Source: a virus. From it: a DNA stretch of 25,599 nucleotides. The stretch lies in IMG/VR virus record IMGVR_UViG_3300021960_000457, positions 1 through 25,599 of that record. One strand, 5' to 3'. Shown piece after piece: positions 1 to 18,318 of the stretch. Position 1 is the stretch's first letter; each line of letters starts with the position of its first letter. A program made the translations under genes and the position numbers. The notes under the pieces were generated by a model, which saw nothing but the letters and a program-made list of their open reading frames with translations, searched no databases and had not been told where the DNA came from.

Positions 1-1349
1 GAATTTTTAACCATAAAAAATGTTTGTCCGTTGTAACTACCGTCTAAAAGATTTACTAGTGCATTACTAGTGAGTACATGTGTCAAATTTAATCCACAAT
101 ACGTATCAGGATCCACATCTGTTAATGTGCTCCAGTTATTACCATTGTCTGTAAGTACAGGTCTTACCATTGGAGAGGCTGTTGTTTGTACTGTACCATC
201 TGGCCATGTTAATCCACTTGTATCAAACTGCCAGTTATGTATCACGTCACCTGCACCATATAATCCTATATTAGCAGTGTCCCCTAATTCAACAAAATTG
301 TTTAAACTAACATTTCCAGTGTAACTGGCTGTTAATAATGCTGTACCATTATCAGGTGCTCTAACAAAAGTTGATGGATAAACACCTAGATTACCTTCAA
401 GTATTGCACCGTTGTTTGGAAACTGTATTGTTGATGTTCCCAATGTTGTTGGAGTACCAACGGTTAAATTACCTGTGTAGATATCGCGCCATGGAATATC
501 AATGGTACCTAATGTATATTGATCAGGATTACTTGGCACGATGCCGTTGCCTTCAAGATTGTTAGTTTCAACAACTAATGCACCTTCACCCCAAGGGTCG
601 CCTAGTGCACCAGTGGAAATAGCCACTCTTCCGTTGCCACTAAATCCATATCCCTGTTGATCAATGTGTAGTGATTCAACTGTGGTTATACCAAATGACT
701 GTGATCCAGAAAGTGACAATAATGGTTGATCAACTGTGACACTGTATCCATCAAAACTTAATGTAGCTCCACCTAGGTAAACTGTATTACCACTGAGATA
801 TAGATCTTTCCACATCGCAGTTGGACTGCCTAGGTCATATGACACGTTAGCAGTAGGAACAACATTACCAAATGTTGTTGAACCATCTGTTAAGGATGCT
901 ACATCACCTTGTAGTATAGTAACATTACTTTCTAAATCATTAACATCACTTTGTAATGTGGCCACATTGGCCTCTACGTTTGCTAGATCTAATGTATCTA
1001 AGTTACTGATTAATTCTGCTTGAGCGGCCGCATTGGCTTCTAACGAAGCAATATTACCTTCTATGGTTGATATGTCAGACTGTATAGCGACAATATCACC
1101 TTCTACAGAAGTCATTGACGATTCTAAATTAGCAACGTCTGATTCTATTGTTGATATATTAGAAGTAAAAGTAGTACTGTTACTTTCTAAATTAGCAACT
1201 TGATCTGGTAAATCACCTAATACATAATCTTTTAGAACCAATCCAGTTGATTTTACAGTGGTAAACGTGGCGGCAGTATTAACTGCTACCACATAGGTAG
1301 TATCTGTAAATGTAGTCAAATTTCCAAGTTGGCTAATCTTAATAGTCAT
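1..1349 (-). CDS. Tail fibre-like structural protein, N-terminal 449 residues (runs off left edge)
   Basis: The frame is open from an ATG at 1349 to the window edge with no stop; the C-terminus is missing. The start is supported by GAGGAA lying in the last two codons of the upstream giant gene, whose TAG stop is only 2 bases away, so translation is probably coupled. Residues 1-48 (MTIKISQLGNLT..., then TTYVVAVN and LVLKDYV) resemble the short N-terminal adaptor of marine myovirus fibres. Residues 51-106 are eight uninterrupted heptads with V/I/L/M at a and d, a textbook coiled coil that continues less regularly to about residue 150. From about residue 180 there are beta-type fibre motifs such as WKDLYLSGNTVYLGG and, near 381-391, LTWPDGTVQTT. 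This fits a trimeric fibre or baseplate adaptor with a coiled-coil stalk and beta-rich distal part. Receptor and C-terminal chaperone or tip are not visible. Fibre class is fairly secure; exact identity is not. Confidence 0.8.
   Translation of the reverse strand, partial: MTIKISQLGNLTTFTDTTYVVAVNTAATFTTVKSTGLVLKDYVLGDLPDQVANLESNSTTFTSNISTIESDVANLESSMTSVEGDIVAIQSDISTIEGNIASLEANAAAQAELISNLDTLDLANVEANVATLQSDVNDLESNVTILQGDVASLTDGSTTFGNVVPTANVSYDLGSPTAMWKDLYLSGNTVYLGGATLSFDGYSVTVDQPLLSLSGSQSFGITTVESLHIDQQGYGFSGNGRVAISTGALGDPWGEGALVVETNNLEGNGIVPSNPDQYTLGTIDIPWRDIYTGNLTVGTPTTLGTSTIQFPNNGAILEGNLGVYPSTFVRAPDNGTALLTASYTGNVSLNNFVELGDTANIGLYGAGDVIHNWQFDTSGLTWPDGTVQTTASPMVRPVLTDNGNNWSTLTDVDPDTYCGLNLTHVLTSNALVNLLDGSYNGQTFFMVKN
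1032..1199 (-). repeat. Heptad-repeat coiled-coil segment of the fibre-like protein
   Basis: Eight consecutive 7-residue units (residues 51-106), for example VANLESN, ISTIESD, VANLESS, IVAIQSD, ISTIEGN and IASLEAN. Hydrophobic residues occupy first and fourth positions of nearly every unit, and small polar or acidic residues fill the rest. This predicts a rod-like, probably trimeric, stalk. Confidence 0.8.
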
Positions 1350-1351
1350 TT

Positions 1352-4300
1352 CTATTCCTCAATAATTATCTCACTGTCTTCAGTAATCAATGGATTGTCA
1401 AATATATTTACCGTTCTTTCTAACACCAGACCTTGATTAAAGATTGCAGGTTGTTCCTTAATAAATTCAGCGGCCATTGTTGTTGACCCTTCTAATCCTG
1501 TACCATCTGTAGTTGTGTACACCCCATCACCAGCATTGTACCAACTTAAGGCATTAGCAGTTTGGAAAACATTACCAACGTAGACATTTACTTCACCATC
1601 AGTTCTAACTTGATGCACTCCAACGTCACCTGACAATGACACTGCAAGAGCGTAAACATTGGATGATAAACTAGACCCATTAACTTCAATTTCATAACCA
1701 ACTGGTGGTATTTCGTCTACACTGACAGCAGTTAGTCCTGAATCTACACCGTTGATTAATATATTACCAACATTGGCAACCAATGATTCTGTACCAGTAG
1801 GGTTCAATGGGGCATATTTTCCTTGGAAAGTGTCTGTGCGACTTCCTGGATTAAATACCAATACGTTAGCACCTGTAGTTTCTTCTGTAAAGTAGGCCGT
1901 TGGTCCATAGATGGTTGTTTCAGCACTGAGTACTATTTCAACAGTTGCAAATTCATCAAGTGTTGGTGGTTCTATAATTTTTACAATGTCTATCACTTCT
2001 TCTTCATCAAAACTCTTACCTACAACCATTACATTAGATCCACTAGCAGGCACAGTGATAAAGTCTCCAGGATCAACAGTTAGATTTCCTAAAACTCTAA
2101 ATTTATGTGTTTTTGTAGTAGTTGCTGTCAATGATGTATTAGCAGTAATTTCTACATTACCAATTTCAACACCAGGTACTATTTGATCAAGTCCGCCATC
2201 AACAACGTAAGTACCATATGGATGTAGTTCAGGAGCACCTGTTCCCCAAGTGCCTCTTCTAATCTGACCTAGTGTATTGTTTGTTAAATCTCTTACAAAG
2301 TAAGTAATTCTCTCACCATTGATAAAGACTGCGCCAGGAATAGCACCAGCTGGATTTGGTGCTGGCATTTTAGATGCATCACCAACATGTATCACTGTGT
2401 CTGTTAATGCTAGTTCCTGTGTTAACATGGTAGTATAACTATCAGAAATTCTTAGATATGTTTCTTCACCCCTCATGTTGTAGAATATTCTATAACCAGC
2501 AATATCAACATTTCCACTACTTGCTAGGTTGGTGTAAATTTTCATATCAAGTGTTTCAAACATTACACCCGGAATTAGTTCTTCAGGTGCATGACTTGAG
2601 TATGTGTCTACGTAGGCTCCGCCTACAACATCAATATCTTCTGGACGGGTTCCCAAAGCTGTGTCGGCATAGGTACTTCTAATCACAGTATCTACTGTAG
2701 CAGTAGACAAAATTGGATTACCATCTTCGTCATATTCTACAGCGTCGTAGGTTGTTGAATCGTATGGTGTATCTGTAATCAATGATCTATATTCAATATC
2801 TACAAATTCAGATGCTACTTCAGATCCATTGATCTTAATATTAGTACCGGTTTCAAAATCAGCAGTGCTGTCTAATATACCAACAATTATTAGTCCACTA
2901 GATGCTGATGAAACAGTTAGCATTGGTTCTGACAGAGTCATAATGTTAGCAGTAGTAATACCAACATTACTCCAAGTTGTAGAATAATAATCAAATGTAG
3001 TAATTTCTTGTTCTACACCATTAATGAATACATTAGCTGTTTCTTCTACATCAAACTCAACAACTGAGTTGTAATTACCAAATATCTCCATGGTATCTGA
3101 ACTAGTAGTTAACACTGTGATATTAGCATTACCTTGGGTTAGGAAATCGCCCTCAGTAACACTTACAGAACTAGATAGATAAAGAGCAACATCAGGTACT
3201 GTTTGAGTAATCACATCACCAATGGCCACTGTTACACTTGAATTCACTATTAAATTTGCCAGAGCTGATCCATTGAATCCAGGCTGTCTAGTAAATGGAA
3301 GACCTGTAACTTGAACTCCAGGATATTCAACCCCTGGAACTAATAATTTTAAGTCTTTGGCAGGTTGACCGTTTTGTGGGTCATAGTAAGCCATAATACG
3401 GTCATTGGCATTAGTAAACAATTCAGATGAATATAATTCATAGTCACTGCTTGTGAATACTAATCCAGTGGTAATATTTGCCAGAACACGATATCCTTGT
3501 CCTTGATAACTTACTATGTCACCTTCATTGTAGTAGGAATTTGTAGCCCATTCCTGAACAGTTGATGAATAAGTAATTCTATCAAATTTCATTGTGGTTG
3601 AAATGCCTCGTACTTGAGTATTTTTAAGTACTGCATAGGCCTTGGCTCCTGTACCATTACCATTGATGATCACAGTAGGAGTAAATGTGTATCCACTTCC
3701 TGGCTTATCAACAACAATGCTGGTAATAGCACCAGTATCACCATTGATAACTGCATGAGCTTCTGCTCCTGATCCATTACCAACAATAGTAACTGTAGGT
3801 ATTTCTGTGTAATCACTTCCACCATCTTCTACAAGAATACTTTCAATGAACAGTGTTCTGTTACCATACCATTGTGAATACTGATCTTGTTGCCAAAGTT
3901 GAGAATCTTTTTCTGCTTGTTCTCCACTTGGAGATCTAAACAGTCTGTCTTGTGTGTCATAATATGCTGGCAGATCAAAATCAGTTACTGAACCTTCAAA
4001 TTGATCAAAGCTGTCATATGATACAAGATATTCTCTAATCTTAGTTTTATAAGGTTTTACTTCATTGATGTAGTCTTGATAATAACTTTGATTATCTCTG
4101 ATATAGTTAGGTAACTGATCAAGATTTCTTAATCTATGTGCTATACTAACAAAACTGGTTTTGAATATCCAATCAATATATTTCTGCTCACTAAGAGCAT
4201 AGTTCATCATAACAAAGAATAACTTGTTAGTTTCGTCTGTTAGTGTACCTGTAAAAATATCGTAACGTAGAGCATTTAGAATATTTCTAATTTCAATGTT

Positions 4301-7300
4301 TGGGCTCTGTGCATAGCGACCAAGATCATACCCTGAATTACCAAAACCAAGATTGGTATCTGTAAAGTCTGCCAAAATGTCTAACAGTTTAATTGTACCA
4401 TTTTGTATACCAACTAATTCAAACTCAGAGCTGGAATTAACAACAACCATTTGCCATTCACCGTTGCCTGAGTTAGCTATTCTAATAACGTCACCTACAC
4501 CATATGATAATTTCAGTGCTTCTACGTTAGATTCCGCAACGTAGGTTGTCTTGGTATTTTGATCGTAACCTTTAGCATACCAATCTTGATATTCCCAATA
4601 GAGTGTGGTGTCATAACTTTGAATGCGAACTAAAATCCATTCTTTATCTTCGCTGAGCTCATTTAATGTCCATAGGCCATCATTTTGTACACTGCTGGTA
4701 ACTAGAACTTTATACCCAGGATTTAATACTTCTGTGTCTATGTAAGTTAATTCTTCATCAGAGTCAACTCGTTGATTATACTCATTTAATTTAAAGTTTG
4801 GTTCTTTTTCTTTATCTAATAGTCTATCAAGTCTATATTGTTTTGCTATAGGATTACTTGCAAAAATATTATTAACGTAGCCAACTAAATTCTTCATGGC
4901 TTCAAATCTATCTTTGAACATTGACTGTCTAGGTCTTACGCTGATACCGTATCTGTCTGCAACACTAAGTTTTGGATCAGGAACCACACGACCAAGAATA
5001 TCAAGTCCTGCAAGACTGTCAATCATCTTATCAATGACTTTTGGAGCAACTCTACTTTGTCCATTGTTTTTCTGTACTAACTCATACTCACTGTGAATAA
5101 TATTTGAATTTTTGATTAATTCATAATCAACGTGTAACACTGTATCCGAAGCTGATAGATAGTTTGACGCATTGTACACTATCAGAGCTTGATTGTGAAT
5201 CACAGCCGCATAAGGTACTCCAGAACTTTTTGGATTTTCAATTAAGGTTTTAATTGTAGTCACTGGTAATTTTCTGTCTGAGTTTACTTTATCTAAACTT
5301 GGTTTGTTAATTACCCAATAATAATATTTGTTAGTAATAACTCCAGATGTATCTACATAGATTGTGCGAACATAAGCACTGTCATCTGGATACAATGGAG
5401 TTCCATCGTTAACCACAATATCATATTGACTTGGTGGTACTGTACTTTCAACCCATTCAGCAACTTCAATTACTGATCCTGGGAAGAAACGACCCCAATT
5501 AATACTTCTATAGGTCAATGAACCTTGTTCATAATCTAAGAATCTAACCTTGTTCAGATTCCACCAAACACGACCAACCTGTTCTGCTCCCCAATGTAAA
5601 TCACCATTGTATCTTCTACTGCCCATGTTATAGACAGCTGGGTCATATTCTGTTTTATAGCTAATTTCTTGTTCAGCTTGACCCATTATTTTACCTTTAA
5701 CAGGATCAATAAATTCCATGTTAGCTAGAATAGTATTTGAAACCTTGTCGTACATATACATACGATTGATAGAATCTATATCCACCTTAGGTGTTTCATA
5801 ACTAATTAATTTCCAACCACGACCACCTGTTAGATTTTCAAATAGATAGACTTTACCTGTATTATCTGATATATCTGTAGGATAAACCCCACTGTCTACA
5901 CCATTAACATATAATGTGTCTGACGAACCAGTTAGTATCTGTTGACTACTATAGTTGATTATACCTATACGATTTCCTTCTTCAACACTGTAGTAAGCGG
6001 TAAATTCATCAAGGCCAGCTGTTGGTTGAGTGATAACATCACCTGCCGCTACTGTGATGTTACCTGATAGCTCTAAATATGTATTGGTGTCATCATTGGG
6101 TGCTGTGGCCATAATATAATTGCCCACAATGTCAATAGCATGACCAAATTCATCACCAGGATTAAGTTCTTCTGGATCTAACTGTTGAGCATAGGCATAG
6201 CGTCCTGGATCTTCTACAGCGTCTCTAGGATCATCGTATAACTCATAGATATAGACACTGCCGCCGCCTTTGACTTGATCAGTAAATGTTGTGGATTCAT
6301 CATCAAATACTGTTTCGTTAACATCAAAAGTCATGTAACGTTTAGTTGTACCTTTGCCTGTTGATATGACCAACATGTAAGCGTTGCGAGCTAGAATAAC
6401 ATTGGTACCAAAGAATTCCCCTGGGGTGTTAAATGTACTTAAGATGATCTGCATTTCAGCAAATACAGCCATACCTGAATCAGCATATACTCCATCACTG
6501 CCTGTTACATTTCTGCCTGACAGAGTTCTTAATAAATTTTTAGCCACAGTTCTATCAGAGTTTAATCTAAAGTATCCGTGTTCGTTAACAGCAGTGATAC
6601 CTAATAAGTTAGCACTGTTGATATCTTCTACCCATTCGTCAAGTGTAGTTCTTCTTGGATAAGCAGTTGTGGGTGTTCCATTGATTGAAACCACGCCAGA
6701 TCCTAGTGTGAACACATTAGCATTGTTATAATCAGATATTGAAACTGTTACTGAACCACCAGTAGGCGAGTCTGCTGTAACAGTAACATTAGCACCTGAA
6801 CTAGACTGTGTGATAAAATCACCTTCTGATACTGTGACTGTTCCACTGAGTCTAAGTTTGACTTTAACTTCAAAGTTATCTAAACGTATTGTGTCGTTTG
6901 GTACAAAGGTAGGATCTTGTATACTACCTGTGTTAGTACCATATAATCTTCCTCTGTGATGGAATTTAAACACTGATCCTGTGTTATATGATGAGCCATT
7001 GTCATAATATGGTGCACCTACATAGATCGCACAGTTGTTAGAACAGATTGTTAGACTTGTTCCAAATCTTGCACCTTCTTGTACTATGGTACCAGTTAAT
7101 AGCTCAAGCAAATTAAATTCATTAGTTTCTACATAGACAACTTTGCCCACACCCAATGGTGTGATAAATCTAACAGTGTTAGATCCAACAATAGAATATC
7201 TACTTCTATCAACTTCTATGTCATCAACTAGTACTCTATAAATTCTACCAATGGTTCCTGTAACAACATAGTCAGTGCTGTCAGTACTATCAAATGCCTC

Positions 7301-10300
7301 AATTACACGATCATAAACGTGTACTGACCCTGCACCAGCATATACTGTAGAAACTGTTCCATCACCTGTGAATGCTCCAACCAAACTGGTAGTATTGGCA
7401 ACAAAGGTTGTACCAACTATATTGTTGGCCGCACCAACTGTGGTAAAATCTGTACTTACATTAGACACAATAGTATATGTTCTACCATGTTTTATCTTAT
7501 CAACTGTTTCGTTAACTGTCACTGGATCATTTGGTACACCAATACCTAACTGTGCACCATCTAAACTTGAATCCATAAAGTAACCAAACTCACTACTTGC
7601 ATTTCCCGTAAGTGTGTCAACATAAACATAGTAAGGTTGTTGGATAATGTCTAGTTCAATTACTGGTGGAACAAAATTAAATTGAATATTACCGCCATCG
7701 ACTACATAGTCAATGTTTGGAACAAAGGTGGTATTTTTATTTTTAACTAATAGTGAATCTGCATCGTCTGTGATCTGTGGAGTAAATGGTATTGCCACAT
7801 TAACGTCTACACCGTCAGGTAGTACCGTTCCAGATTCAAGTTCTATGGTTTCATCTAATCCGTAGACATAGACCAGATCATTGCCAGGAGCACCAACATA
7901 TAACCAACGACCTGATTCATCAAATGATATAGATGATCCAAATCTGTCACCTGTAGAAGCAACATTACCTACAACAACCTGACCAATATTCCAACCAGCC
8001 TGCCCTTCAGGTCTATTGTAGATATGTACAAAACCTAAATCTGACTCACTGCCTGGAGAACCTACACCTAATCTATCAATAGCAAAGTCAACAAATGATC
8101 CAAACTCGTATGTATTACCTGTTGATGGACTTATAACCACTGAGTGTTCATATTCGTTGTCATAGTTTCTAACAAATAGATTAACCTCGCCAACTCCTGC
8201 TGTTGTTGTATCAGTGATAACGTCATATCTAGATGCAGTTTCTCCACCCACAGCAATAGTAGACAGATCATAACTCATTCTAACTGAACTACCGTAGGTA
8301 TCTGCATTAGATTGCAAACCAACTGGTTTAGAAATGCCTGATTTCAATGACCACGGGTGTTGTTTTTCATAAACTTTCCAAGTATTTTGTACAGTGTTAA
8401 CGGGCTGACCTTGTACAAGGCTAGTTGCCGCGTCAGTATCAATCCAAATCTTATCACCAATCTTCCAACCGTGTTTTGGATTAGTTAATCCGTACACACG
8501 ACTGTCTTCCATAAAGGAAAATCGCATACTATCTAATTTAAACAATAAGCCGCGACCATCAATTGATGTTAGGTTTGTAGTATCACCTGCGTACTCAACC
8601 ATGATGCTGTTAAGATCAACAATCTTATAAGCACGATAAAATCCATTAAACTCTGTTATAAATTGTTTAAGGAAGAATAGTTCTTCTTTTTCTAAACCAT
8701 GTGGTTGTTCAAATGTAAATGTTACGAACCCGTCTAGATCATTTTTTACACCAATAACATTGTTATCAGTTTCTGTAACACGTAAAACGTCCCATTCTTG
8801 ACTGAAATTTTTTGCTACCCAAATTCTATAACCTGTGCCTATTTCATCTATCTTACTATTAAGTTCTTGATAGTTTGTTAGATCAAATATAGTTGTATCA
8901 ACATCATCAATATTAACATAACCAGCTGTTGGTATATCATTATCATAGTCACTTTCGTCCGTACGGTTAAGTGCTATATATCCTGAGAAACTTTCAGCAG
9001 TTCTATATAGTTCAGTTTTACTAAACTTAGTCAATCCATCTGCTAGACCTGCATCTTCTGCTGTTAAAAATTCTGCCCTAGCAGGATTAACCCCAAACTC
9101 TTTTTCATCTAATACAATTTCAATGTAAGGGTTAGTATCCAATGCGCCATATTCTCCAACACGTATAGCCCATTCTTCATAAAAATTAATTTGACTATCT
9201 AGATTACTAAACTGAGCATTAGTCAAAGCTTCAATACTGTTTGCTGTACCTTTTTGTTTGATATAGCCTTTATAGAATTCAATCTGTGTACTTTCATCTA
9301 AGCCAATGTCTGACAAATATTGTCTGGGTTTAAAACCAATCAAACCATGACTGTACTGTAACTGATTTTGATCTTGGAAGTAACCTTTAGAATCATAATA
9401 TGATTTTGATCTTGTGGCGTTACTTGAAAAGTTTGTAAGTAATCCTTTATTAAATTGCCCAGCGTCAGACAATTTCCATTTAGTAAAATCAAATTCCGCA
9501 GTTGCTGGTACATTATTCAATGCTACAAATAATTGATCTTTATATTTGACTATGTCTCCTTTGAGATAGTCTTTTCCTGAATTCCATGTCTGTGTTACAG
9601 CACTGCCATATATGAAGCCAGGAGCATACATACTACCATTCCAATCACCTGTCTTTTGACCAATAAGTTTCAAACGGTACTGTCTACTACCTAATTCAGG
9701 TTTGTAAATAATGTCATTGAACACTGTAGAATTGTCAAATATCAAAGTGTGTTCATATTGAACAAGATTTAATTCTATATAACCTACTATGCTATTTGCA
9801 TCAGTTAAAGTTAGAGTAAACTCTTCAGGCGAACGTGTGATATTATATTTGTTACGTTTGATCAATTTAAAGTTTTGGTCAACTACTCTTGACTCGTACT
9901 GCCTATCCGACACTTCGTCAACAATAGCCCCAATGGTACTAACAGCAATAGAATTTGATATAGGACTTAGTACTAGAATGCTACCTGAATTCCAACCTTG
10001 TTGAGCCCAGAATAACAATTCCTTGACTGACAATTTCCAGTTTTTAATTTCACCAAGCTCTTCTTCTATCTTGTTAAAAGTAAAACCCTGTGACATTAAG
10101 TATCTTTCGTAACTAATTAAGAAATCTACAGTCTGCTGAAGTGTTTTAAATTCATAGCCATAAGGCACTGTAAGTTTAATTGGTTGGTAGTCTAGATATA
10201 CTACACCTTCTTTATCAAGAACTTTAATTTTTCTAGCATTACTATTAACCACACTTGGGATGATAGTAAAATAAGGATTAGATACATCATAACCTTTTAC

Positions 10301-13300
10301 TGTATATCCACTGTCTGTTTTTTCAACAATCACAGCACTGTAGACTAGCCTGTCAACTGGTGTTGATTTGTAAAGATGAATATCATAGTTTTCATCTGGT
10401 ATAACAATACTTTCATTAGTACTTGATGGCGAACTTTGCTCAGCTAGAACCTGCAGGAATCTATGATCGCTGAACCCTGCCATCTTATAGGCTAATTGGA
10501 CTTGATAACGTTGAACTAGCAATGATAATCTAGCAGAAGGATCTATACCTAAATTAATTAATTGATCTGCTATCCAGTTAAGATAACTAGCAGTTCTATA
10601 GATTGAATTTTCTGAATTTAAGTACCCGTTGTAACTTACATCAGTTTGTCTAATATGATGAGAATTACTATTAATAAATTGTCCTAATTCATTATTTTTT
10701 CTATAGTCGTCAATGTCAATGTTTAGACCAAAATATTTTCCTGGTTTAGCCAACGCCATAGCAATCTGTACAGCATAAGGAAATTCACTTGAACGGCGCC
10801 ATGCAATTTCAGCAGGACCTTGTTCACCTATTGTCCAGGACTTGCTAGCTGATGATGCTCTAAGATTTCTACATAAGATACTGCTTGGTGGTATTAGCCC
10901 ACCATTGGCATCTACAGGAATAATAGTAGTAAGACCAGGTCTAGCAAATAAAGGATCAATACCGGCACGATCACCGTCTACAATACGACCTTGTTCAAGA
11001 TCTTCCCATAATAAAGCATTACCACCAGTGTAAGGTGCAGGTCCATAATAACCTTCCCACCAGTCTGGTTTGATACTAAATCCTAACATTTCCCATGGAC
11101 GTGTATTTGGTGCATCTGTATCATAAAAATATTGATAACAGGCTCTCCAACTACCTGGCAGGTCACTGCCATCTAATCTATCAGGCACACCTGAGTAATT
11201 CCAAGTAAATGCGTCATTGTTTTTGAATGTTACATTTTCTGAGAAATCAATTTTGTTATTACCAATCCAATTCAAAAATCCTTTAGACAATATTCTGTTT
11301 GCTTCATTGATAGTATAATCATTGTCTCTAAATCTACCTGGCAGTACATTATAGATATCTTCAAAGCTGAGTTGCATTGGTACTTTAATATTATTATAGA
11401 TACGTTTTTCTAATTCTAATAATACGTCATCTCTATAATCACCAAATGCAGGAGTTAGACTTCCGTCGTGCCCTCTAATCACAATTACTGGAGTTCTATA
11501 GGTATCATCTTCAAATACTTCTGGAATAAACTTAGGATAAAGTCCTAACTTGGTTGGTGTTTCAGGTATATAGTTACCGTCAGTGTTTGAATATTCAACT
11601 ATGGTTAATATATCATCTACTTCAAGAGTCACTGTTTCATTTATTGTAACTGCAGGACGATCTTGATTAAAGTAATAGTCCTTATCAATTACTAACTGAA
11701 CTCCATTGAGGTAAACTAAAATTGCCTGGTTACTTAACAATCTATTATTAAACACATTAATAATTTCATATGATCTAACCAATGGATCAAAGATAGTATA
11801 CCCAACATCTGCTACAATAGTTTTTAATGGACCATATGGTACCATGTCACTGTAATACCAAGGGAAAGTTGCATTTTTAATTTTATTAATTTCTGTTAGA
11901 ATCAAATCAACAGTGGCCACAGGATCAGTTGGGTCAACTCCTGAAAGAGTTGAACTAAGTTCTAAGAATTTATATTTAAATTTTGAATATTCTTGTTGTG
12001 CTAGTCTGACACTGTTAACAAAATTTGCTTCTTTATCTAGCAAGAACAATGCTGAATATGGCACAGGGGCACTGTGTTGAAGAATATTACCACCTTGTGC
12101 TTTTAGTTCTATATCTCTAAGATTACTTGCACCAAGTACATTGCCATCTAATTCTTTACTATTTTCACTCAAAGCCACTAAGTGGTTTCTCATTTGACCT
12201 AACGTTAATGTGTCTAGATCAATATTTTGTGCATTTAGGTTTAGATTGCTAGGAACTTCATAGTGCCCTAATTTACTAACCTGATCACTAAAGACAGCTA
12301 CTATAATTTTATCACCAGCATTGAGTGTTGGTGTTAAAGTCAACTCTCTATTAGAACTTAAAGTCCACTGTGTTGATTTTAATAATTGATTATTTAAAAA
12401 AACTTTAACATTTGGGGTTGTTTGTTCGGCACGTGGAGTAATATCTAATACAAAAGGATAGTTGTATTCATCATAGGTAAATTCAATTAATTGGTATTGT
12501 TTGCTTGGTTCAACTACAGTTTGCCAAACATTTTTTATTAAGTATGTTTCTCTACCTGTAATTTTATGTAAGAATCCTTGAGCTATAGAATCTACGATAA
12601 CATCTTGTCCATTGGTATACTCAAACGTATCAGTATCGAAGAAGTTAGTAAATTCAATGTCACCTTGAGTGGTAAAGGATCTATAACTTAATCCAAACCC
12701 AAGTATTGGGTCAGCAGTGTTAGCAGTATTAACTTTATAGCCAAATATCTTACTACCTGCAAAAGTTGATCGTGAATATGTTGTTAGGCTATTGTCATTT
12801 AAATCAAATACATCAAACAATGGTGCTTGATTCAATCCTGTTTTTTGTTGTGCTTCATACCATTGGTTACCGTCATACCACCATTGGGATCCTTTATATG
12901 GACCATCTGTGACTACTACACTGTCATTGACATCAGCATCACCATCATCAGCAATAGTTAATTTAATATGATAATCGCCAGTAGGCAATCCAGTAACTGG
13001 GTCTGCTTCATATTGTACTAAATTAATAACATAAATCTTATCTCTTACCAATGGGTCATTATCAGCGGCAAATAGAATACGCATGCCGTCAAATAACTCT
13101 GTACCAACTGCTATGGTATATGTTTTACCTTCTAACTCGTTAAATGCGTCAGCAGTAGTAGTATCTAATATATTGATCTGTCTTTTACCAATGGTACCAT
13201 AATTTAATAATTTTAGGTTTGATTCAAACTGTACAATAGGTCTCTTAGCACGAGCATTTTGATCTAATTCAATAGGTGTGTTATTATATCCTGCTGTGGC

Positions 13301-14899
13301 TATAATAATGTCCTGATGGAACCAGCGATTGTTTCTTGACCAAGCATTAAGATCAATACTACCACGTACAATAGTAATATAGTCAGGAAATATTTCATCA
13401 GGATAATTTAAAGCTAACTCATCTAAATAAGTCTCCGGAGTGACCATTAGTTCAACATCAACTAATCTAATACTATCACCAACGTTTTCAACATAATATT
13501 CTTTGTCAGCATAGGTACTAGGAGTAACATCAGTACCAAATCTAATTTTAAGACCACTGGTAAACACAATACCATTTGGACTGGTGTATGTTTTCTTTCC
13601 TAAGATGTCATTGTCAACATCAATTGACCAACCTGTTGGTTCAACAATTTTAATTGATTTATAAATTTCAGTGTCATTTTCATCTTGTATGTACAACGTA
13701 TTTTTTGTACTAGAAAGTAATGGCACTTCATGAAAGAAACCATCGTAATCTTTGTAATATTCTTTATTAGCATTGAGTACACCATATCTAATAAAAACTT
13801 TTTCGTTAATATCAACTGATTGTACTGGTACTAATCTAATTATTGGATCATTAATACCACCAGAAGAAAATACAACTTTCCACACACCGTAACGATCTGC
13901 ATCTGGAACTATTACACCTGCATCTAAGGTTGGTTCTGGATTACCATCAGGATTTATTACAGTTGGTGCAGTCCACGCAGGTTCACCAAGGTTGATTAAT
14001 GTTTCTACATCAATAAAAATTAAAGTTTTTCCATCTAGATTGCCAGTAATGCCAGCGTATTGTGGATATTCTTCTAAGAATGATGATAGGTAACGATTGT
14101 GTAATTCTGAGTAGGCCAATGGAGTAGCATAGTCTACATTGTAAACTGATGCCATTTTAATAAATCTATCTTGTGCATTAGACTGTGGAACATTAAATGT
14201 CACTGTTCCTGAATCAGCACCATTGTTGGTGACGCCTAACACAGATCTAGAACTAATAGTTGGAGTAGAATTTAATTTACCATCAACTCCTAATTCTGTT
14301 TGTATCCAAAAAGGATTACCTGTTTGATCTAAAACAAATTCATAACTACCACCACGTGCTAGTGTAATGTTATTAGTAATTGTGCCGTTGTCATCAAAAA
14401 TGTATTGATTGGTACTAGCATCTCTAGTCACGGTGAATGTTTTAGTAAGGTCAACACCTTCAGTACTTACGTTGACTGGATCTGGGCCATTAGGCAACCA
14501 ATAGTACTGAGTAAAATTAATTAGTTTATCAAGAGAAATGTGTGGATCAAATGTATAATATTCGTTGTCAAACAGTCTGTTATGATTGTTTGTAATACCA
14601 CCATAATATTTGATCTGATTAATTAGATCAATATAACTGCTAAAAAATTCAACATTATCTTCTTTGTCTTTAACAACTATACTAGGTTCAAGTTGATAGT
14701 TTTGTCTGTTAAAACTTGACTCTGTAACGTAACTATCACCTTTCTTATATGTAGGAGCAAACTTTCTTCCAATGTACCCGTGTACTCTGGTAAGATTTGG
14801 TTCTGAAACCAATTGATCAATGGTTGCTGATAAAAATTTTTCATTTGTATCAGTACGGAATATACCTGGTAATAAATTAAGAGTCTTTCTTACGGCCAT
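1352..14899 (-). CDS. Giant modular baseplate-associated structural protein (4515 residues)
   Basis: A 13.5-kb gene without interruption, starting 17 bases after the gp6 stop at an ATG preceded by GGATAGGT. The N-terminus (LPGIFRTDTNEKF, DQLVSEPN, GYIGRKFAPT, YYTFDPH, QYYWLPNGPDPV, residues 8-145) looks like the large virion protein that follows gp6 in marine T4-like phages (recalled family knowledge, not searched). Visible modules in order: cupredoxin-like segment near 176-204 (RGGSYEFVLDQTGNPFWIQT); NG-loop modules near 815-860 and 1057-1104; a conserved-looking W/P/G-rich block near 1250-1300 (PWEMLGFSIKPDWWEGYYGP); FG-GAP propeller-like repeats at about 2195-2940 with inserted modules; a mostly helical block near 3540-3683; a GSGYT pair near 3690-3760; and GDFITQ modules near 2685, 2946, 3888-3929 and 4270. 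No signal peptide, membrane segment or catalytic motif was recognised. It sits where T4 encodes gp7-gp12, so a peripheral baseplate or fibre-platform role is inferred. A tape-measure role is unlikely because it is beta-rich. Confidence 0.85.
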   Translation of the reverse strand: MAVRKTLNLLPGIFRTDTNEKFLSATIDQLVSEPNLTRVHGYIGRKFAPTYKKGDSYVTESSFNRQNYQLEPSIVVKDKEDNVEFFSSYIDLINQIKYYGGITNNHNRLFDNEYYTFDPHISLDKLINFTQYYWLPNGPDPVNVSTEGVDLTKTFTVTRDASTNQYIFDDNGTITNNITLARGGSYEFVLDQTGNPFWIQTELGVDGKLNSTPTISSRSVLGVTNNGADSGTVTFNVPQSNAQDRFIKMASVYNVDYATPLAYSELHNRYLSSFLEEYPQYAGITGNLDGKTLIFIDVETLINLGEPAWTAPTVINPDGNPEPTLDAGVIVPDADRYGVWKVVFSSGGINDPIIRLVPVQSVDINEKVFIRYGVLNANKEYYKDYDGFFHEVPLLSSTKNTLYIQDENDTEIYKSIKIVEPTGWSIDVDNDILGKKTYTSPNGIVFTSGLKIRFGTDVTPSTYADKEYYVENVGDSIRLVDVELMVTPETYLDELALNYPDEIFPDYITIVRGSIDLNAWSRNNRWFHQDIIIATAGYNNTPIELDQNARAKRPIVQFESNLKLLNYGTIGKRQINILDTTTADAFNELEGKTYTIAVGTELFDGMRILFAADNDPLVRDKIYVINLVQYEADPVTGLPTGDYHIKLTIADDGDADVNDSVVVTDGPYKGSQWWYDGNQWYEAQQKTGLNQAPLFDVFDLNDNSLTTYSRSTFAGSKIFGYKVNTANTADPILGFGLSYRSFTTQGDIEFTNFFDTDTFEYTNGQDVIVDSIAQGFLHKITGRETYLIKNVWQTVVEPSKQYQLIEFTYDEYNYPFVLDITPRAEQTTPNVKVFLNNQLLKSTQWTLSSNRELTLTPTLNAGDKIIVAVFSDQVSKLGHYEVPSNLNLNAQNIDLDTLTLGQMRNHLVALSENSKELDGNVLGASNLRDIELKAQGGNILQHSAPVPYSALFLLDKEANFVNSVRLAQQEYSKFKYKFLELSSTLSGVDPTDPVATVDLILTEINKIKNATFPWYYSDMVPYGPLKTIVADVGYTIFDPLVRSYEIINVFNNRLLSNQAILVYLNGVQLVIDKDYYFNQDRPAVTINETVTLEVDDILTIVEYSNTDGNYIPETPTKLGLYPKFIPEVFEDDTYRTPVIVIRGHDGSLTPAFGDYRDDVLLELEKRIYNNIKVPMQLSFEDIYNVLPGRFRDNDYTINEANRILSKGFLNWIGNNKIDFSENVTFKNNDAFTWNYSGVPDRLDGSDLPGSWRACYQYFYDTDAPNTRPWEMLGFSIKPDWWEGYYGPAPYTGGNALLWEDLEQGRIVDGDRAGIDPLFARPGLTTIIPVDANGGLIPPSSILCRNLRASSASKSWTIGEQGPAEIAWRRSSEFPYAVQIAMALAKPGKYFGLNIDIDDYRKNNELGQFINSNSHHIRQTDVSYNGYLNSENSIYRTASYLNWIADQLINLGIDPSARLSLLVQRYQVQLAYKMAGFSDHRFLQVLAEQSSPSSTNESIVIPDENYDIHLYKSTPVDRLVYSAVIVEKTDSGYTVKGYDVSNPYFTIIPSVVNSNARKIKVLDKEGVVYLDYQPIKLTVPYGYEFKTLQQTVDFLISYERYLMSQGFTFNKIEEELGEIKNWKLSVKELLFWAQQGWNSGSILVLSPISNSIAVSTIGAIVDEVSDRQYESRVVDQNFKLIKRNKYNITRSPEEFTLTLTDANSIVGYIELNLVQYEHTLIFDNSTVFNDIIYKPELGSRQYRLKLIGQKTGDWNGSMYAPGFIYGSAVTQTWNSGKDYLKGDIVKYKDQLFVALNNVPATAEFDFTKWKLSDAGQFNKGLLTNFSSNATRSKSYYDSKGYFQDQNQLQYSHGLIGFKPRQYLSDIGLDESTQIEFYKGYIKQKGTANSIEALTNAQFSNLDSQINFYEEWAIRVGEYGALDTNPYIEIVLDEKEFGVNPARAEFLTAEDAGLADGLTKFSKTELYRTAESFSGYIALNRTDESDYDNDIPTAGYVNIDDVDTTIFDLTNYQELNSKIDEIGTGYRIWVAKNFSQEWDVLRVTETDNNVIGVKNDLDGFVTFTFEQPHGLEKEELFFLKQFITEFNGFYRAYKIVDLNSIMVEYAGDTTNLTSIDGRGLLFKLDSMRFSFMEDSRVYGLTNPKHGWKIGDKIWIDTDAATSLVQGQPVNTVQNTWKVYEKQHPWSLKSGISKPVGLQSNADTYGSSVRMSYDLSTIAVGGETASRYDVITDTTTAGVGEVNLFVRNYDNEYEHSVVISPSTGNTYEFGSFVDFAIDRLGVGSPGSESDLGFVHIYNRPEGQAGWNIGQVVVGNVASTGDRFGSSISFDESGRWLYVGAPGNDLVYVYGLDETIELESGTVLPDGVDVNVAIPFTPQITDDADSLLVKNKNTTFVPNIDYVVDGGNIQFNFVPPVIELDIIQQPYYVYVDTLTGNASSEFGYFMDSSLDGAQLGIGVPNDPVTVNETVDKIKHGRTYTIVSNVSTDFTTVGAANNIVGTTFVANTTSLVGAFTGDGTVSTVYAGAGSVHVYDRVIEAFDSTDSTDYVVTGTIGRIYRVLVDDIEVDRSRYSIVGSNTVRFITPLGVGKVVYVETNEFNLLELLTGTIVQEGARFGTSLTICSNNCAIYVGAPYYDNGSSYNTGSVFKFHHRGRLYGTNTGSIQDPTFVPNDTIRLDNFEVKVKLRLSGTVTVSEGDFITQSSSGANVTVTADSPTGGSVTVSISDYNNANVFTLGSGVVSINGTPTTAYPRRTTLDEWVEDINSANLLGITAVNEHGYFRLNSDRTVAKNLLRTLSGRNVTGSDGVYADSGMAVFAEMQIILSTFNTPGEFFGTNVILARNAYMLVISTGKGTTKRYMTFDVNETVFDDESTTFTDQVKGGGSVYIYELYDDPRDAVEDPGRYAYAQQLDPEELNPGDEFGHAIDIVGNYIMATAPNDDTNTYLELSGNITVAAGDVITQPTAGLDEFTAYYSVEEGNRIGIINYSSQQILTGSSDTLYVNGVDSGVYPTDISDNTGKVYLFENLTGGRGWKLISYETPKVDIDSINRMYMYDKVSNTILANMEFIDPVKGKIMGQAEQEISYKTEYDPAVYNMGSRRYNGDLHWGAEQVGRVWWNLNKVRFLDYEQGSLTYRSINWGRFFPGSVIEVAEWVESTVPPSQYDIVVNDGTPLYPDDSAYVRTIYVDTSGVITNKYYYWVINKPSLDKVNSDRKLPVTTIKTLIENPKSSGVPYAAVIHNQALIVYNASNYLSASDTVLHVDYELIKNSNIIHSEYELVQKNNGQSRVAPKVIDKMIDSLAGLDILGRVVPDPKLSVADRYGISVRPRQSMFKDRFEAMKNLVGYVNNIFASNPIAKQYRLDRLLDKEKEPNFKLNEYNQRVDSDEELTYIDTEVLNPGYKVLVTSSVQNDGLWTLNELSEDKEWILVRIQSYDTTLYWEYQDWYAKGYDQNTKTTYVAESNVEALKLSYGVGDVIRIANSGNGEWQMVVVNSSSEFELVGIQNGTIKLLDILADFTDTNLGFGNSGYDLGRYAQSPNIEIRNILNALRYDIFTGTLTDETNKLFFVMMNYALSEQKYIDWIFKTSFVSIAHRLRNLDQLPNYIRDNQSYYQDYINEVKPYKTKIREYLVSYDSFDQFEGSVTDFDLPAYYDTQDRLFRSPSGEQAEKDSQLWQQDQYSQWYGNRTLFIESILVEDGGSDYTEIPTVTIVGNGSGAEAHAVINGDTGAITSIVVDKPGSGYTFTPTVIINGNGTGAKAYAVLKNTQVRGISTTMKFDRITYSSTVQEWATNSYYNEGDIVSYQGQGYRVLANITTGLVFTSSDYELYSSELFTNANDRIMAYYDPQNGQPAKDLKLLVPGVEYPGVQVTGLPFTRQPGFNGSALANLIVNSSVTVAIGDVITQTVPDVALYLSSSVSVTEGDFLTQGNANITVLTTSSDTMEIFGNYNSVVEFDVEETANVFINGVEQEITTFDYYSTTWSNVGITTANIMTLSEPMLTVSSASSGLIIVGILDSTADFETGTNIKINGSEVASEFVDIEYRSLITDTPYDSTTYDAVEYDEDGNPILSTATVDTVIRSTYADTALGTRPEDIDVVGGAYVDTYSSHAPEELIPGVMFETLDMKIYTNLASSGNVDIAGYRIFYNMRGEETYLRISDSYTTMLTQELALTDTVIHVGDASKMPAPNPAGAIPGAVFINGERITYFVRDLTNNTLGQIRRGTWGTGAPELHPYGTYVVDGGLDQIVPGVEIGNVEITANTSLTATTTKTHKFRVLGNLTVDPGDFITVPASGSNVMVVGKSFDEEEVIDIVKIIEPPTLDEFATVEIVLSAETTIYGPTAYFTEETTGANVLVFNPGSRTDTFQGKYAPLNPTGTESLVANVGNILINGVDSGLTAVSVDEIPPVGYEIEVNGSSLSSNVYALAVSLSGDVGVHQVRTDGEVNVYVGNVFQTANALSWYNAGDGVYTTTDGTGLEGSTTMAAEFIKEQPAIFNQGLVLERTVNIFDNPLITEDSEIIIEE
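1700..2095 (-). repeat. GDFITQ/NGVDSG module, copy 4 (in giant protein)
   Basis: Contains LTVDPGDFITVPASGSNVMV near residues 4270-4290 and ends with ILINGVDSGLTAV. The order of motifs matches the other copies, but the spacing is longer because about 70 residues are inserted. Confidence 0.6.
3000..3245 (-). repeat. GDFITQ/NGVDSG module, copy 3 with a duplicated front half
   Basis: SVTVAIGDVITQ is followed about 20 residues later by SVSVTEGDFLTQGNANITV, then VFINGVEQEITTFD. The tandem front half suggests a partial internal duplication. Confidence 0.6.
3620..3840 (-). repeat. Tandem GSGYT-type repeat pair (in giant protein)
   Basis: Two adjacent units of about 35 residues: GGSDYTEIPTVTIVGNGSGA then GSGYTFTPTVIINGNGTGA, each followed by A-x-A (AEAHAV, AKAYAV). 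The two units align position by position. Such G-S-G-Y-T...P-T-V...G-x-G-x-G-A repeats are common in large phage and secreted structural proteins. Confidence 0.75.
5865..6080 (-). repeat. GDFITQ/NGVDSG module, copy 2 (in giant protein)
   Basis: LSGNITVAAGDVITQPTAG near residues 2943-2960, ending LYVNGVDSGVYPTDISD. It follows directly after the last FG-GAP-like blade motif (GDEFGHAIDIVGNYIMATAP). Confidence 0.65.
6080..8320 (-). repeat. FG-GAP / beta-propeller-like repeat region within the giant protein
   Basis: Spaced blade-like motifs of the form G-x-x-F/Y-G-x-x-hydrophobic...hydrophobic-G-A/V-P: YGSSVRMSYDLSTIAVGG (about residue 2200), FGSFVDFAIDRLGVGSPGS (about 2285), DRFGSSISFDESGRWLYVGA (about 2320), EFGYFMDSSLDGAQLGIGVP (about 2440), ARFGTSLTICSNNCAIYVGA (about 2615) and DEFGHAIDIVGNYIMATAP (about 2915). 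Most are followed by a strand such as VHIYNR, VYVYGL, VHVYDR or VYIYEL. This resembles integrin-type FG-GAP repeats. Other modules interrupt it, so blade number and closure are uncertain. Confidence 0.65.
6650..6855 (-). repeat. GDFITQ/NGVDSG module, copy 1 (in giant protein)
   Basis: LSGTVTVSEGDFITQSSSGA near residues 2682-2702, followed by NVTVTADS and ending VVSINGTPTTAYP. It is inserted between two FG-GAP-like blades and is the clearest example of the module. Confidence 0.65.
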
Positions 14900-14916
14900 T
14901 GATGTTTACCTATCCA

Positions 14917-17900
14917 TTATAAAGATATTTGATTAAGTTGTGCCGCTGTAATAGCCGCAATTACTTGTACATTGTCTACTGTTGCAGAACTAACAATGAT
15001 TTCATTATATTCAGCATTGATCTGCATCAAACTACCAAAGTTGCTAGACTGACTTGACGGTACAATAATCACACTGGCTATGTTTGGTGCTAGAACACTA
15101 TGGAGGTATGCACTAAGTTCACTGAAATAAAATGTTTCTCCAAAGTCCCAATTGGCAATATCAAAATAACTGTTGATAGCCGCAATCACAGAAGTCTTAA
15201 CATCATTGTCACTAACCACCACACTAGCATTCTTAACAACTTTAAACACTGCCTGAAGACTAGGATCTGCTTCTGCACCAAATATAGGTTTAAATTTTGC
15301 AGGGTTATAGATCACTGTGTCACTTACACTCTTATATTTTTCTAATTTACTAAACTCTAATTCTAATTCGTCACCTGTTGGAATTTGTGGCTCACTAACA
15401 GTATTTGATGTATCCTGTATCCAAGCAATATAATCGTCAGCATACTGTTTGGTTAATATGTAAAGATCAATAATGTTGTTTGGACTTGGATCAATACGTC
15501 TGTAGTTTGGGGAGTTATGACGATATTGAAAATAGATATCCTGACGACCAATTTTGGCTGTAAACTCTGTTTGTTCTGTTAGTGTGTATACTGCGCCATT
15601 GACTGTTAATTTATAAAATATGTCATCATCTGGTACATAAAATATCTGACCATCTGTATATAATGTAGCAGATGATTGTATGTCTCTCAATGACGAATAC
15701 TCAGTAACCACACTGTTATTGTCATATGGTTGTTCGTTGATAAAATTATCATAGCCAACTACATTTTCAAAAAACACATATTTGTTTTGTGAATTTACAT
15801 CAGGTGCTACTATGAGTTCAAATAATTCTGGATTGTCTGGAATACCATCGTTATCAGTATCAGGGAATGTTACTTGAATTCTATTAGGATTCTCATAACC
15901 ATCAACTTCAGTGATCTTATCATAGATAAACCATGGATAGTCCAAAGCTAATGCTTCTATATCGTCTGGTTTCGTATTGATTTTAAGAATTTTAACCTGA
16001 TCACTAATTGTTAATCCTGTCTTTGGGTCATAAATTTTAACATCATTATCAAAATAAAAATTAGTTTCTCTCACACTTTCAAATATGTATTCAAGACCTC
16101 TACTAGTCACATTATAGGTCTGTTCTACTGTTTGGAAGATAATAGTCCAACTACTGTCTAGACCATTGCCACTGGTGTTGCCAGCATTTGTTAGGCTAAA
16201 CTCTGCTGTACTTAAATTTTCAGGATAAATGATAGTCCAAGCTGAAGTTTCCATGTTATATCTTAGACCAAAGTCTTGGAAAGCTTCAATATAGTTGATC
16301 ATTTCAATGATTAAATCTGTAGGAAACTCATTGTTAAACACAGCAAACACTTCCTGTGCTACAGCACCTTCAGGAACGTTTTGGTTAATGGTTACAGGTC
16401 CTGAGCCATTACTTAGATTTCCTAGTCCTCCATTGGTTCCGTCGCCTACAAGATCTTGTACTGCCGCATAGATATAATACTTGTCTCCATCTTTTGACGG
16501 AGTACCTGATTGTATTCTATTTTTAGAATCAAAGTAATTACCACTACCAGCAGAAAATTTAACAATAGCTCTTGGTAGTATGTAACCATAGTTACTACTT
16601 ACACCTTCACCTATCTGAATTGGTCTATCAAGACTGTTGACGAAAAATCCTGTACAACCATTGGCAATGGTTGTTGATTTATGCCAGTAACCGTCACTGA
16701 CTGCTAGTAAAGGATAATAAGCATAGAAAAATTGTAATGTTTGTTGTTTTGCTACAATTGGTTTTACTTGATTGAATATTACTCTATAGATATCATTTCT
16801 AGTATTATATTCAAAACTGAATGTTGTTATCGTAGGATTGCGATAGAGCATACCATCCTGGGCAAACACGTTGGTACTAGAATACTTACCTGTGGTATCA
16901 ATAACGTCCAGATAGCGACTTACACCTGAACTTGTTCTGTTAATTGCTTTAACTTTAAGTATGTTGCTGAACAAGGTATAAGGCAGAATATTATAATCTT
17001 CACCTGATACCATACGATCTTGTGTGTAATATTGTTGAGGTGCTTTCTGTCTAATATCCTCAATAGTTTCTCTAGTTGCCGCATTGGCCACTGTGTATTG
17101 CAAACTAGCAGTTATATTTAATGTTTCAATTCTACCTGTCTTACTAACATAATTAATAGGAACAGTTATAGATTGCATCTCATCGGGTGTAATCTTGTAC
17201 TGTTGGCCATTACTTACTCTATAATAGAGTCTATACCGTCCTTGAGGAACTGTGGCGAATGCACCATCGCCAAATACTAGATCAATTTGATCGTTGGCTC
17301 TGGTATTGATCTGATAGACTGTTCTATTAGTACCTTTGTTATAGATTACATTGGTAACACCAACAGCAGGAACCTGTTCCCATAATGTGCTTTCGTTGCC
17401 CAATGAATCAAGACTGTATAACCATACGTCACTATTATTAATATTGTCAACATTGATACTATAAACTCTGTTAGGAATACTTTCAGTAAAATTTAAATCA
17501 ACACTCTTAAGTTCGCCTTGTTTAAAATATAAAAAGAAACCTGTGTTATTACTGCTGTTGCCAAGATTATCATTTTTATATAAAAGATTAAATGATCTAT
17601 TTGGTCTTGGATCTGCTTCATAGATATAGGTTCTATTTGAACTAGTAGGGCTTATTGCTTCAAAGGTAATAGGCACGTTTTCAATGTTTGGTTGAAAACT
17701 ATAAGTACCAATCACATTAGGGATTAGATTAACCTGATATTCAGCATTAGTAACACCATTGATTAATTGTGTGTTACTTGGTTTACCAATAACCTGATTA
17801 GTATTAAGACTAGCGTTGATAATAGCAGTAAACTGTTCTTGCCAATTGTCGTTGGCTGAATCAGCCCAATTAACTACTAAACCAGCAAGATTTAATCCTG

Positions 17901-18297
17901 TACTGTCAAACACTGTTTCAGTAGTACTCACAGAGTCAAATTTGAGTAGACCTGATGCTGGTATATTTCTTTTAGGGTTGTAACTGATCAGTCTTGCTAG
18001 TTTTAAGATACTGTCACGACGTTGTGCTGTGTCAATAAAGTTTTCACGTGAATTAAGATCAGTTCTAAATGCCAAACTTTGACCTAAGAATGATAATAGG
18101 TCAATCAATGCAACAAATTCACTTGATTCAATGAAGTCATTGAAATCCTCAGGATAATACAACCTGAGATAATCAACCATTGACTTTCTTAGAGTTTCAT
18201 AGTCATAACTCTTAAAGTCAGCATTACGAAAAGTTTGATAGACTTTGGTCCAGTCTTCAGCAACTAATAAACTTGTTTGTCTTGTAGTTATAGCCAT
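14917..18297 (-). CDS. 6: Baseplate wedge protein gp6-like (baseplate J family)
   Basis: Wedge subunit that in T4 dimerises into the iris-like ring around the central hub and connects the wedges. The N-terminus (residues about 37-110: MVDYLRLYYPEDFNDFIESS, LSFLGQSLAFRTDLNSREN, LARLISYNPKRNIPASG) matches the gp6 pattern. The core has the baseplate J-like signature VFGDGAFATVPQGRYRLYYR near 336-360, then SGEDYNILPY and INRTSSGVSRYLDVIDTTGK near 430-470. The C-terminus (about 1030-1126) has WDFGETFYFSELSAYLHSVL followed by IASVIIVP, typical of the family's closing domain. At 1126 residues it is much longer than T4 gp6 (about 660); the extra length is mainly between roughly 520 and 1020 and is unassigned. 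Start: ATG with AGGAAAA upstream, after a 48-base gap carrying a possible late promoter. The next gene begins 17 bases downstream. Confidence 0.9.
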   Translation of the reverse strand: MAITTRQTSLLVAEDWTKVYQTFRNADFKSYDYETLRKSMVDYLRLYYPEDFNDFIESSEFVALIDLLSFLGQSLAFRTDLNSRENFIDTAQRRDSILKLARLISYNPKRNIPASGLLKFDSVSTTETVFDSTGLNLAGLVVNWADSANDNWQEQFTAIINASLNTNQVIGKPSNTQLINGVTNAEYQVNLIPNVIGTYSFQPNIENVPITFEAISPTSSNRTYIYEADPRPNRSFNLLYKNDNLGNSSNNTGFFLYFKQGELKSVDLNFTESIPNRVYSINVDNINNSDVWLYSLDSLGNESTLWEQVPAVGVTNVIYNKGTNRTVYQINTRANDQIDLVFGDGAFATVPQGRYRLYYRVSNGQQYKITPDEMQSITVPINYVSKTGRIETLNITASLQYTVANAATRETIEDIRQKAPQQYYTQDRMVSGEDYNILPYTLFSNILKVKAINRTSSGVSRYLDVIDTTGKYSSTNVFAQDGMLYRNPTITTFSFEYNTRNDIYRVIFNQVKPIVAKQQTLQFFYAYYPLLAVSDGYWHKSTTIANGCTGFFVNSLDRPIQIGEGVSSNYGYILPRAIVKFSAGSGNYFDSKNRIQSGTPSKDGDKYYIYAAVQDLVGDGTNGGLGNLSNGSGPVTINQNVPEGAVAQEVFAVFNNEFPTDLIIEMINYIEAFQDFGLRYNMETSAWTIIYPENLSTAEFSLTNAGNTSGNGLDSSWTIIFQTVEQTYNVTSRGLEYIFESVRETNFYFDNDVKIYDPKTGLTISDQVKILKINTKPDDIEALALDYPWFIYDKITEVDGYENPNRIQVTFPDTDNDGIPDNPELFELIVAPDVNSQNKYVFFENVVGYDNFINEQPYDNNSVVTEYSSLRDIQSSATLYTDGQIFYVPDDDIFYKLTVNGAVYTLTEQTEFTAKIGRQDIYFQYRHNSPNYRRIDPSPNNIIDLYILTKQYADDYIAWIQDTSNTVSEPQIPTGDELELEFSKLEKYKSVSDTVIYNPAKFKPIFGAEADPSLQAVFKVVKNASVVVSDNDVKTSVIAAINSYFDIANWDFGETFYFSELSAYLHSVLAPNIASVIIVPSSQSSNFGSLMQINAEYNEIIVSSATVDNVQVIAAITAAQLNQISL

Positions 18298-18318
18298 ACT
18301 TATTTTCCTGTTATACTA

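Follow-up and report, generated by a model that had tools for sequence, protein, structure and literature searches.

A giant protein in the gp7 gene position of an uncultured T4-related phage, with a predicted FG-GAP propeller

In phage T4, the gene behind gp6 encodes gp7, a protein of 1032 residues that binds gp6 and gp8. Cyanophages carry giant proteins annotated as gp7 in the corresponding place (5195 aa in P-SSM2, 4454 aa in P-HM2), and both phages keep an adjoining gp8 gene. In pelagi- and cyanomyophages, VrlC seems to take gp7's place, according to the accessible part of PMC7029224. A further set of giant virion proteins comes from jumbo phages and is gathered in phrog_10938. Giant proteins at the gp7 position, very large for phages, are mostly named ‘virion structural’ or ‘hypothetical’ in the records that we opened or that our searches listed. 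Here, we describe a member of the jumbo-phage family from an uncultured virus, whose entire IMG/VR record of 25,599 bases (the window) was analysed.

One frame behind gp6 and its family

The giant gene P0001 (1352..14899, minus strand) is open from ATG to stop over 4515 codons and covers 53% of the window; the encoded protein has a calculated mass of 503 kDa and a pI of 4.5. This agrees with the first-pass annotation, which had described a single uninterrupted 13.5-kb frame filling over half of the window and had not given its strand. The runner-up in length is gp6 with 1126 aa, and no plus-strand frame in the list exceeds 92 aa, so that a chance open frame can be excluded. On the minus strand, the gene order runs from P0007 through a gp53-like gene (Pfam Phage_gp53), P0005, a gp5-like gene (Phage_base_V), gp25 and the gp6-like gene to the giant gene and a coiled-coil fibre-like gene. 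The gp6-like baseplate wedge protein (14917..18297, minus strand; phrog_10646 and phrog_219) lies immediately upstream of the giant gene, and the fibre-like gene after it (3..1349, minus strand) is truncated by the record end and encodes 492 aa in a longer contig. The earlier placement of a modular structural protein directly behind gp6 is thus borne out by the order gp25-gp6-giant and by relatives that are virion proteins. The phage itself is T4-related, since a T4-type Gp23 capsid gene was found in all seven records searched (its own longer contig, the contigs of five relatives and RaK2). We also observed that the gp6-like protein has 1126 aa compared to 660 in T4, so that wedge enlargement extends beyond the giant protein. 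Further downstream in the same phage (L066, 10415-19001), the frames at 12927-19001 resemble, by eye, a radical-SAM/SPASM-type run; the frame at 14507-15853 matches PHROG radical-SAM families, and the PHROG search with the frame at 10415-11260 gave no match. Phosso and Atu_ph07 likewise have annotated radical-SAM genes downstream of their giant genes.

But could a frame of this length join separate genes by misassembly, as the first-pass annotation had considered, or encode a chain that is cut into several mature proteins? A longer IMG/VR contig of the same phage (L026, 88,224 bases) carries an identical 4515-codon frame except for two bases, both of which change an amino acid; this contig could share the window's sample. 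With the core alignment as query, at least 591 stretches were found to encode a relative, and the 80 best loci were taken. The 127 IMG/VR loci from this and one other search comprise 61 complete frames, 56 that run off the contig and 10 without a start. All complete frames but one measure 3500-5066 aa, and the median of the 61 is 4460 aa; the lone exception (L024), with a stop at 2109 codons, is what speaks for an artefact or for cleavage. Between two close relatives (L018 and L019), dN is 0.014-0.085 and dS 0.41-0.86 across all six segments of the protein, and these substitution rates indicate that the giant frame is under purifying selection over its full length. The many contigs with a long frame and the purifying selection rule out an assembly artefact, and we consider the broader alternative, artefact or cleavage, very improbable. 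The longest frame in this analysis extends over at least 6581 codons and is still open where its contig ends (contig 1-19744, L048 and G002, two stretches in the same frame).

The phrog_10938 profile matches the giant protein with E=0 and 1231 bits in three stretches. A tblastn search with residues 1-1801 returned 60 phage records; RaK2-like phages, Atu_ph07, Phosso, PA5oct and SCTP-2 are among the 40 that were listed. Relatives with a name are jumbo phages whose hosts include Pseudomonas, Klebsiella, Erwinia, Salmonella and Agrobacterium, along with a Vibrio phage from seawater and a phage from a saltern; there is no cyanophage among the 40 listed of the 60. The N-terminus had previously been taken for the usual marine-phage type, a view that these mainly jumbo-phage relatives do not support. 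In eight opened isolate records, the orthologues measure 3326-4555 aa (RaK2 3326, CBB 3340, PA5oct 3857, Atu_ph07 4449, Phosso 4555), and RaK2-like loci hold 3331-3341 aa in 14 of 14 cases, counted from the first Met. While the protein does exceed all T4 baseplate proteins by far, as was initially stressed, the comparison with homologues' lengths proposed at that stage shows that its size is not exceptional: 4515 aa is close to the median of the complete frames, and giant gp7 proteins are already annotated in cyanophages. By length, the giant protein is an ordinary representative of a known large family of probable phage baseplate proteins.

Gene order and virion data from the relatives bear on its role. 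Six of the eight named isolates have a gene labelled as baseplate wedge directly before the giant gene. The Vibrio phage has, in the place of gp6, a neighbour labelled CBM family 5/12 only, and in SCTP-2 the gp6-like gene is not adjacent but sits ~90 kb away. Upstream of its giant gene, SCTP-2 has a gene for 3096 aa (L005, 6633-15923). For CBB_236, the part of the study available reports 21 unique virion peptides with 7.72% coverage (PMC5259590). The accessible portion of another lists phAPEC6 gp245, a protein of 381.88 kDa with 17 virion peptides (PMC7247149), whose orthology is assigned by gene order and size only. The record of PA5oct gp355 carries an ESI-MS/MS note of virion detection. RaK2 ORF070 is not named in the available parts of the RaK2 papers PMC10253068 and PMC3622015.

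A conserved core with adaptor-like modules

The division of the chain into conserved and variable parts was taken from an alignment of 26 proteins that includes 13 distant relatives. In the distant relatives, the N-terminal block, residues 1-150 (14450..14899, minus strand), has an occupancy of 86-100% and an identity of 35-40%. It is followed by a variable insert, residues 151-430 (13610..14449, minus strand), which is largely missing in RaK2, CBB, PA5oct and L043 and whose Pfam beta-sandwich matches are all below threshold. The main conserved core, residues 431-2080 (8660..13609, minus strand), was delimited with this alignment, a second alignment (A1) and a structure model, and the C-terminal core, residues 3031-3680 (3860..5809, minus strand), with the alignment and the orthologue comparison. 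In the distant relatives, conservation extends over about residues 430-2050 and 3040-3660 of these cores and also takes in residues 3750-3850 and 4050-4250; besides the insert, residues 2080-3030, 3870-4040 and 4260-4515 are variable. The core has invariant columns over 17 and over 83 sequences. Consequently, the initial description of much of the chain as a mosaic of beta modules holds for about half of it, while the other half is conserved core. By sequence, the giant protein gave three chance-level matches in the PDB (best E 0.51) and alignment A1 gave none; it had no match in NCBIfam, and a blastp self-comparison for repeats returned nothing.

Structure models cover residues 860-2050 and 2062-3255. 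For the core model (860-2050, 83 sequences; pLDDT 81.3, pTM 0.75), Foldseek found no PDB chain reaching E 0.001, and the matches in a viral model library were other uncultured phage proteins and Atu_ph07. VIA-align, which flags Z values under 8 as a possibly common arrangement, returned two recurring local matches to the core model, one of chitin-binding type (residues 1766-1814) and one to fibre adaptors (residues ~1024-1104). The latter falls into module d2, residues 1020-1112 (11564..11842, minus strand), whose predicted fold resembles podophage tail-fibre adaptors and CBA120 TSP4 in 11 of 50 rows (Z 5.0-6.5, with 62-80 residues superimposed at an rmsd of 1.9-6.6 A). Unlike in these proteins, the version found here is embedded in a 4515-aa chain and present in four related copies. 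The other three are d1, residues 815-905 (12185..12457, minus strand), d3, residues 2360-2440 (7580..7822, minus strand), which separates blades 3 and 4 of the propeller described below, and d4, residues 2528-2612 (7064..7318, minus strand), which separates blades 4 and 5. Pairwise hhalign probabilities, with controls of up to 12.3%, are high for d1 with d2 (90%) and d4 (93%) and for d3 with d4 (91%), intermediate for d2 with d3 (40%) and d4 (37%), and 4.6% for d1 with d3.

Several smaller domains follow the adaptor-like module in the core or lie near the C terminus. A beta-sandwich at residues 1511-1714 (9758..10369, minus strand) weakly resembles pilin domains and T5/DT57C portal-neck chains, with Z values of 4.9-5.8 that the tool flags as the common range. 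CBM5/12 module A, residues 1766-1814 (9458..9604, minus strand), scores 23.1 bits in Pfam, below the cut-off of 26.2; its predicted fold matches the baseplate receptor-binding complex of phage Milano (8fqc) with Z 8.0 and 1.1 A over 45 residues, and fibres of phage 7-7-1 with Z 7.8. Module B, residues 3778-3828 (3416..3568, minus strand), reaches 37.8 bits with Pfam CBM_5_12 at the same cut-off, 33.4 bits on its own slice and 97.8% with module A in hhalign. Because phage and contractile-injection chains have the same fold, the CBM5/12 modules may be mere adaptors. Next to module B, a GSGYT repeat module at residues 3680-3772 (3584..3862, minus strand) matches phrog_460 with E 3.9e-11 and is also present in cyanophage proteins. 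The idea put forward in the first-pass annotation that several peripheral functions are merged in one chain gains support from the four adaptor-like and two chitin-binding-type domains, as recognised by fold and profile comparison.

Taken together, we read the giant protein as a baseplate-wedge scaffold of T4-related jumbo phages that occupies the T4 gp7 gene position, with a probability of about two in three. The gene order, the virion peptides of relatives, the gp7 labels in cyanophages, the T4-type capsid gene, the conserved core and the fold matches to baseplate and fibre proteins argue for this reading, as do the propeller and the recurrent modules that spare the long core blocks (both described below). 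Weighing against it are the lack of gp7 similarity in an insensitive comparison (see below), the modest Z values of the adaptor matches, the core model's lack of a PDB match in Foldseek and the gene order in SCTP-2 and the Vibrio phage. In such a scaffold, the N-terminal block and the central core would join gp6 and build the wedges, and the adaptor-like and CBM5/12-like domains could serve as docking sites for fibres or receptor-binding proteins. The abundance of beta modules also fits a different protein, namely a long peripheral appendage, such as a fibre or whisker-like filament, that is encoded after gp6 by chance and whose beta modules form the shaft. CBM-type and adaptor-type domains occur in fibres too, and CBB and phAPEC6 bear tail hairs whose genes are not assigned in the parts of the reports available. 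However, about half of the chain is a strongly conserved core of mixed alpha/beta structure with a confident model, unlike a repetitive shaft, and the length of the RaK2-like proteins is nearly constant. Moreover, according to the accessible text, the CBB authors expect the hair genes among those missing from GAP32, and GAP32 has the giant protein. An appendage is thus unlikely in our view.

The propeller and a recurrent beta module

Between the two core parts lies an FG-GAP beta-propeller with nested inserts, residues 2181-3032 (5804..8359, minus strand), recognised with Pfam, by its blades and in the structure model. Pfam FG-GAP_2 reaches 27.5 bits on the whole protein (cut-off 23) and 23.6 bits on the slice, in three stretches. 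The blades are located at residues 2198-2250, 2262-2302, 2316-2350, 2434-2536, 2608-2653, 2826-2891 and 2914-3026; the blade HMM, built from the window's own blades, gives nine hits there because inserts split two blades. With the propeller model (2062-3255, 58 sequences; pLDDT 86.0, pTM 0.77), Foldseek found 130 matches at E 0.001, of which the best 50 rows are mostly integrin alpha (best E 7.1e-9). VIA-align superimposed integrin alpha-M with Z 24.6 and 2.6 A over 354 residues and a WD40 ring with Z 24.3. Since WD40 scores as high, the ring is well supported, while the affinity to integrin rests on the FG-GAP blades. Residues 2181-3032 are therefore predicted to form a closed seven-bladed FG-GAP ring. 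With integrin alpha, the propeller shares the seven-bladed ring, the FG-GAP-type blades and inserts between blades. Calcium-binding loops of the DxDxDG type are typical of integrin alpha; in contrast, no D-x-[DN]-x-[DN] motif occurs within residues 2181-3032, the identity is ~16%, and WD40 propellers match equally. Because these loops are absent, we do not class the propeller as an integrin.

How widespread is this propeller in the family? Among the 96 proteins with both cores (window included; 88 of them different), 77 have it, with four to nine blade hits each and seven hits in 47 of the 77. The 19 without blades at E 0.1 are seven named isolates (RaK2, XaC1, Vibrio 2.275.O, PA5oct, SCTP-2, Phosso, Atu_ph07), four RaK2-like contigs and eight other contigs. 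On the core tree, presence and absence of the propeller require three changes. The propeller thus appears to be carried by the window protein and uncultured relatives and to be absent from laboratory-grown family members. One relative (L038) lacks nearly all of residues 2157-3028, and two others (L203, L032) are bladeless, with their two cores spaced about as closely, showing that the propeller region is removable between the two core parts. The ring spans ~370 residues in L196 and L216 and ~850 in the window because of modules between and inside the blades. A translated search of 50,697 named phage records with residues 2190-3032 gave one weak match (E 2e-3), to a different protein of Phosso. 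This match links the first FG-GAP blades to an 11-kb hypothetical gene (PV764938.1, 57900-68978), so that further giant proteins of these phages may contain propeller-type repeats.

A further insert is a beta module of ~70 residues. Its HMM was seeded with four window copies, so that its matches to these copies are by construction. The module was found in 44 of the 148 sequences examined, a set that includes ten T4 and cyanophage controls and many fragments; at E 0.1, it had no match in named phages. In the window, it occurs at residues 2682-2749 between blades 5 and 6 (6653..6856, minus strand; an HMM seed that recurs in relatives), at 2942-3008 nested in blade 7 (5876..6076, minus strand; HMM match with locally low pLDDT), at 3906-3968 (2996..3184, minus strand; another seed) and as two overlapping HMM hits at 4268-4332 and 4322-4392 (1724..2098, minus strand). 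The hit at 4268-4332 is partial and falls below the length filter of the 140 filtered copies, none of which maps into either of the two long core blocks (residues 430-2080 and 3040-3680). Of the 44 module-bearing proteins, only the window protein and L152 have the blade-7 site occupied. After removal of seven near-duplicate loci and of short hits, 107 copies at 16 sites are left. The nearest copy lies at the same site in another phage for 71 of them, at another site in another phage for 32 and at another site in the same phage for four. This pattern supports turnover of the module by gain and loss, as judged from sequence comparison. As identities are low, these counts do not show recent movement or transposition.

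In the wedge-scaffold reading, the propeller would be an extra rim platform in the window's clade, and its inter-blade and inter-strand loops would accept further small beta modules, such that the host-facing surface varies and the wedge core stays fixed. It is tempting to go further and see in the integrin-alpha-like propeller a receptor- or fibre-binding head, with insertion into its loops, rather than swaps of fibre genes, retuning host range. We regard this as a tentative idea, possible rather than probable; if the propeller does bind receptors or fibres, host recognition by phages would gain a new element. As far as the openly accessible journal literature was searched, an FG-GAP propeller in a phage baseplate was not found, and the accessible part of a 2026 jumbo-phage review (PMC13282480) contains neither ‘propeller’ nor ‘wedge’. 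Within this scope, two features are new: a probable phage wedge protein that contains an FG-GAP propeller, and modules that turn over around this propeller.

Relation to described wedge proteins

Alternatively, the chain might be a fusion that unites gp7 and gp8 with further T4 wedge proteins. A T4-type gp8 profile, which does detect gp8 in T4 and P-SSM2, found no match in the 88-kb contig, in four relatives of 189-289 kb, all of them possibly incomplete contigs, or in the RaK2 genome record. The N-terminal domain of T4 gp9/gp10 is above cut-off in one of the five clade contigs and not in RaK2; as with gp8, the profile may miss distant members, and two more contigs have sub-threshold matches, which counts against a loss by fusion. 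The gp8 absence fits, without proving, merged functions in the giant protein. On the other hand, P-SSM2 has a gp7 of similar size yet a separate gp8, and the chain shows no similarity to the presumed parts. Profile comparison by slices, as had been suggested at first pass, gave no T4 gp7 match: 16 slices reached at most 0.5% probability in hhalign, a test that is insensitive, as the gp6 control (a single sequence against the T4 gp6 family) reached only 18.9%. Against T4 gp7, gp8, gp9 and gp10 together, nothing exceeded 20% with the same weak control, the best being 19.5% for d2 with gp10. T4 gp7 is also absent among the 50 rows listed per fold search with the two models, which excludes nothing. 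All in all, we consider a fusion quite unlikely and retain the wedge scaffold as the preferred reading.

Finally, we would like to place this scaffold among the described proteins. A conserved wedge core with exchangeable platforms offers a testable picture of how baseplates of large contractile phages are enlarged and varied. With the giant virion proteins of jumbo phages (phrog_10938), the window protein is homologous in the N-terminal block, the core and the C-terminal core, at ~23-44% identity per segment; it differs from the seven named isolates in its FG-GAP blades and its recurrent 70-aa module, both unmatched there at E 0.1. With the cyanophage giant gp7 proteins, it shares the size class and the place after gp25-gp6, and no core similarity to them was detected. 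Likeness to gp7 of P-SSM2 and P-HM2 is otherwise confined to small shared modules, namely the GSGYT module (hhalign 95% and 92% to slices of P-SSM2 gp7), probably one adaptor-type module (84.9%) and, as an ambiguous profile match of 40%, residues 4142-4224. With T4 gp7, the giant protein has in common the gene position behind gp6, at over four times the length.
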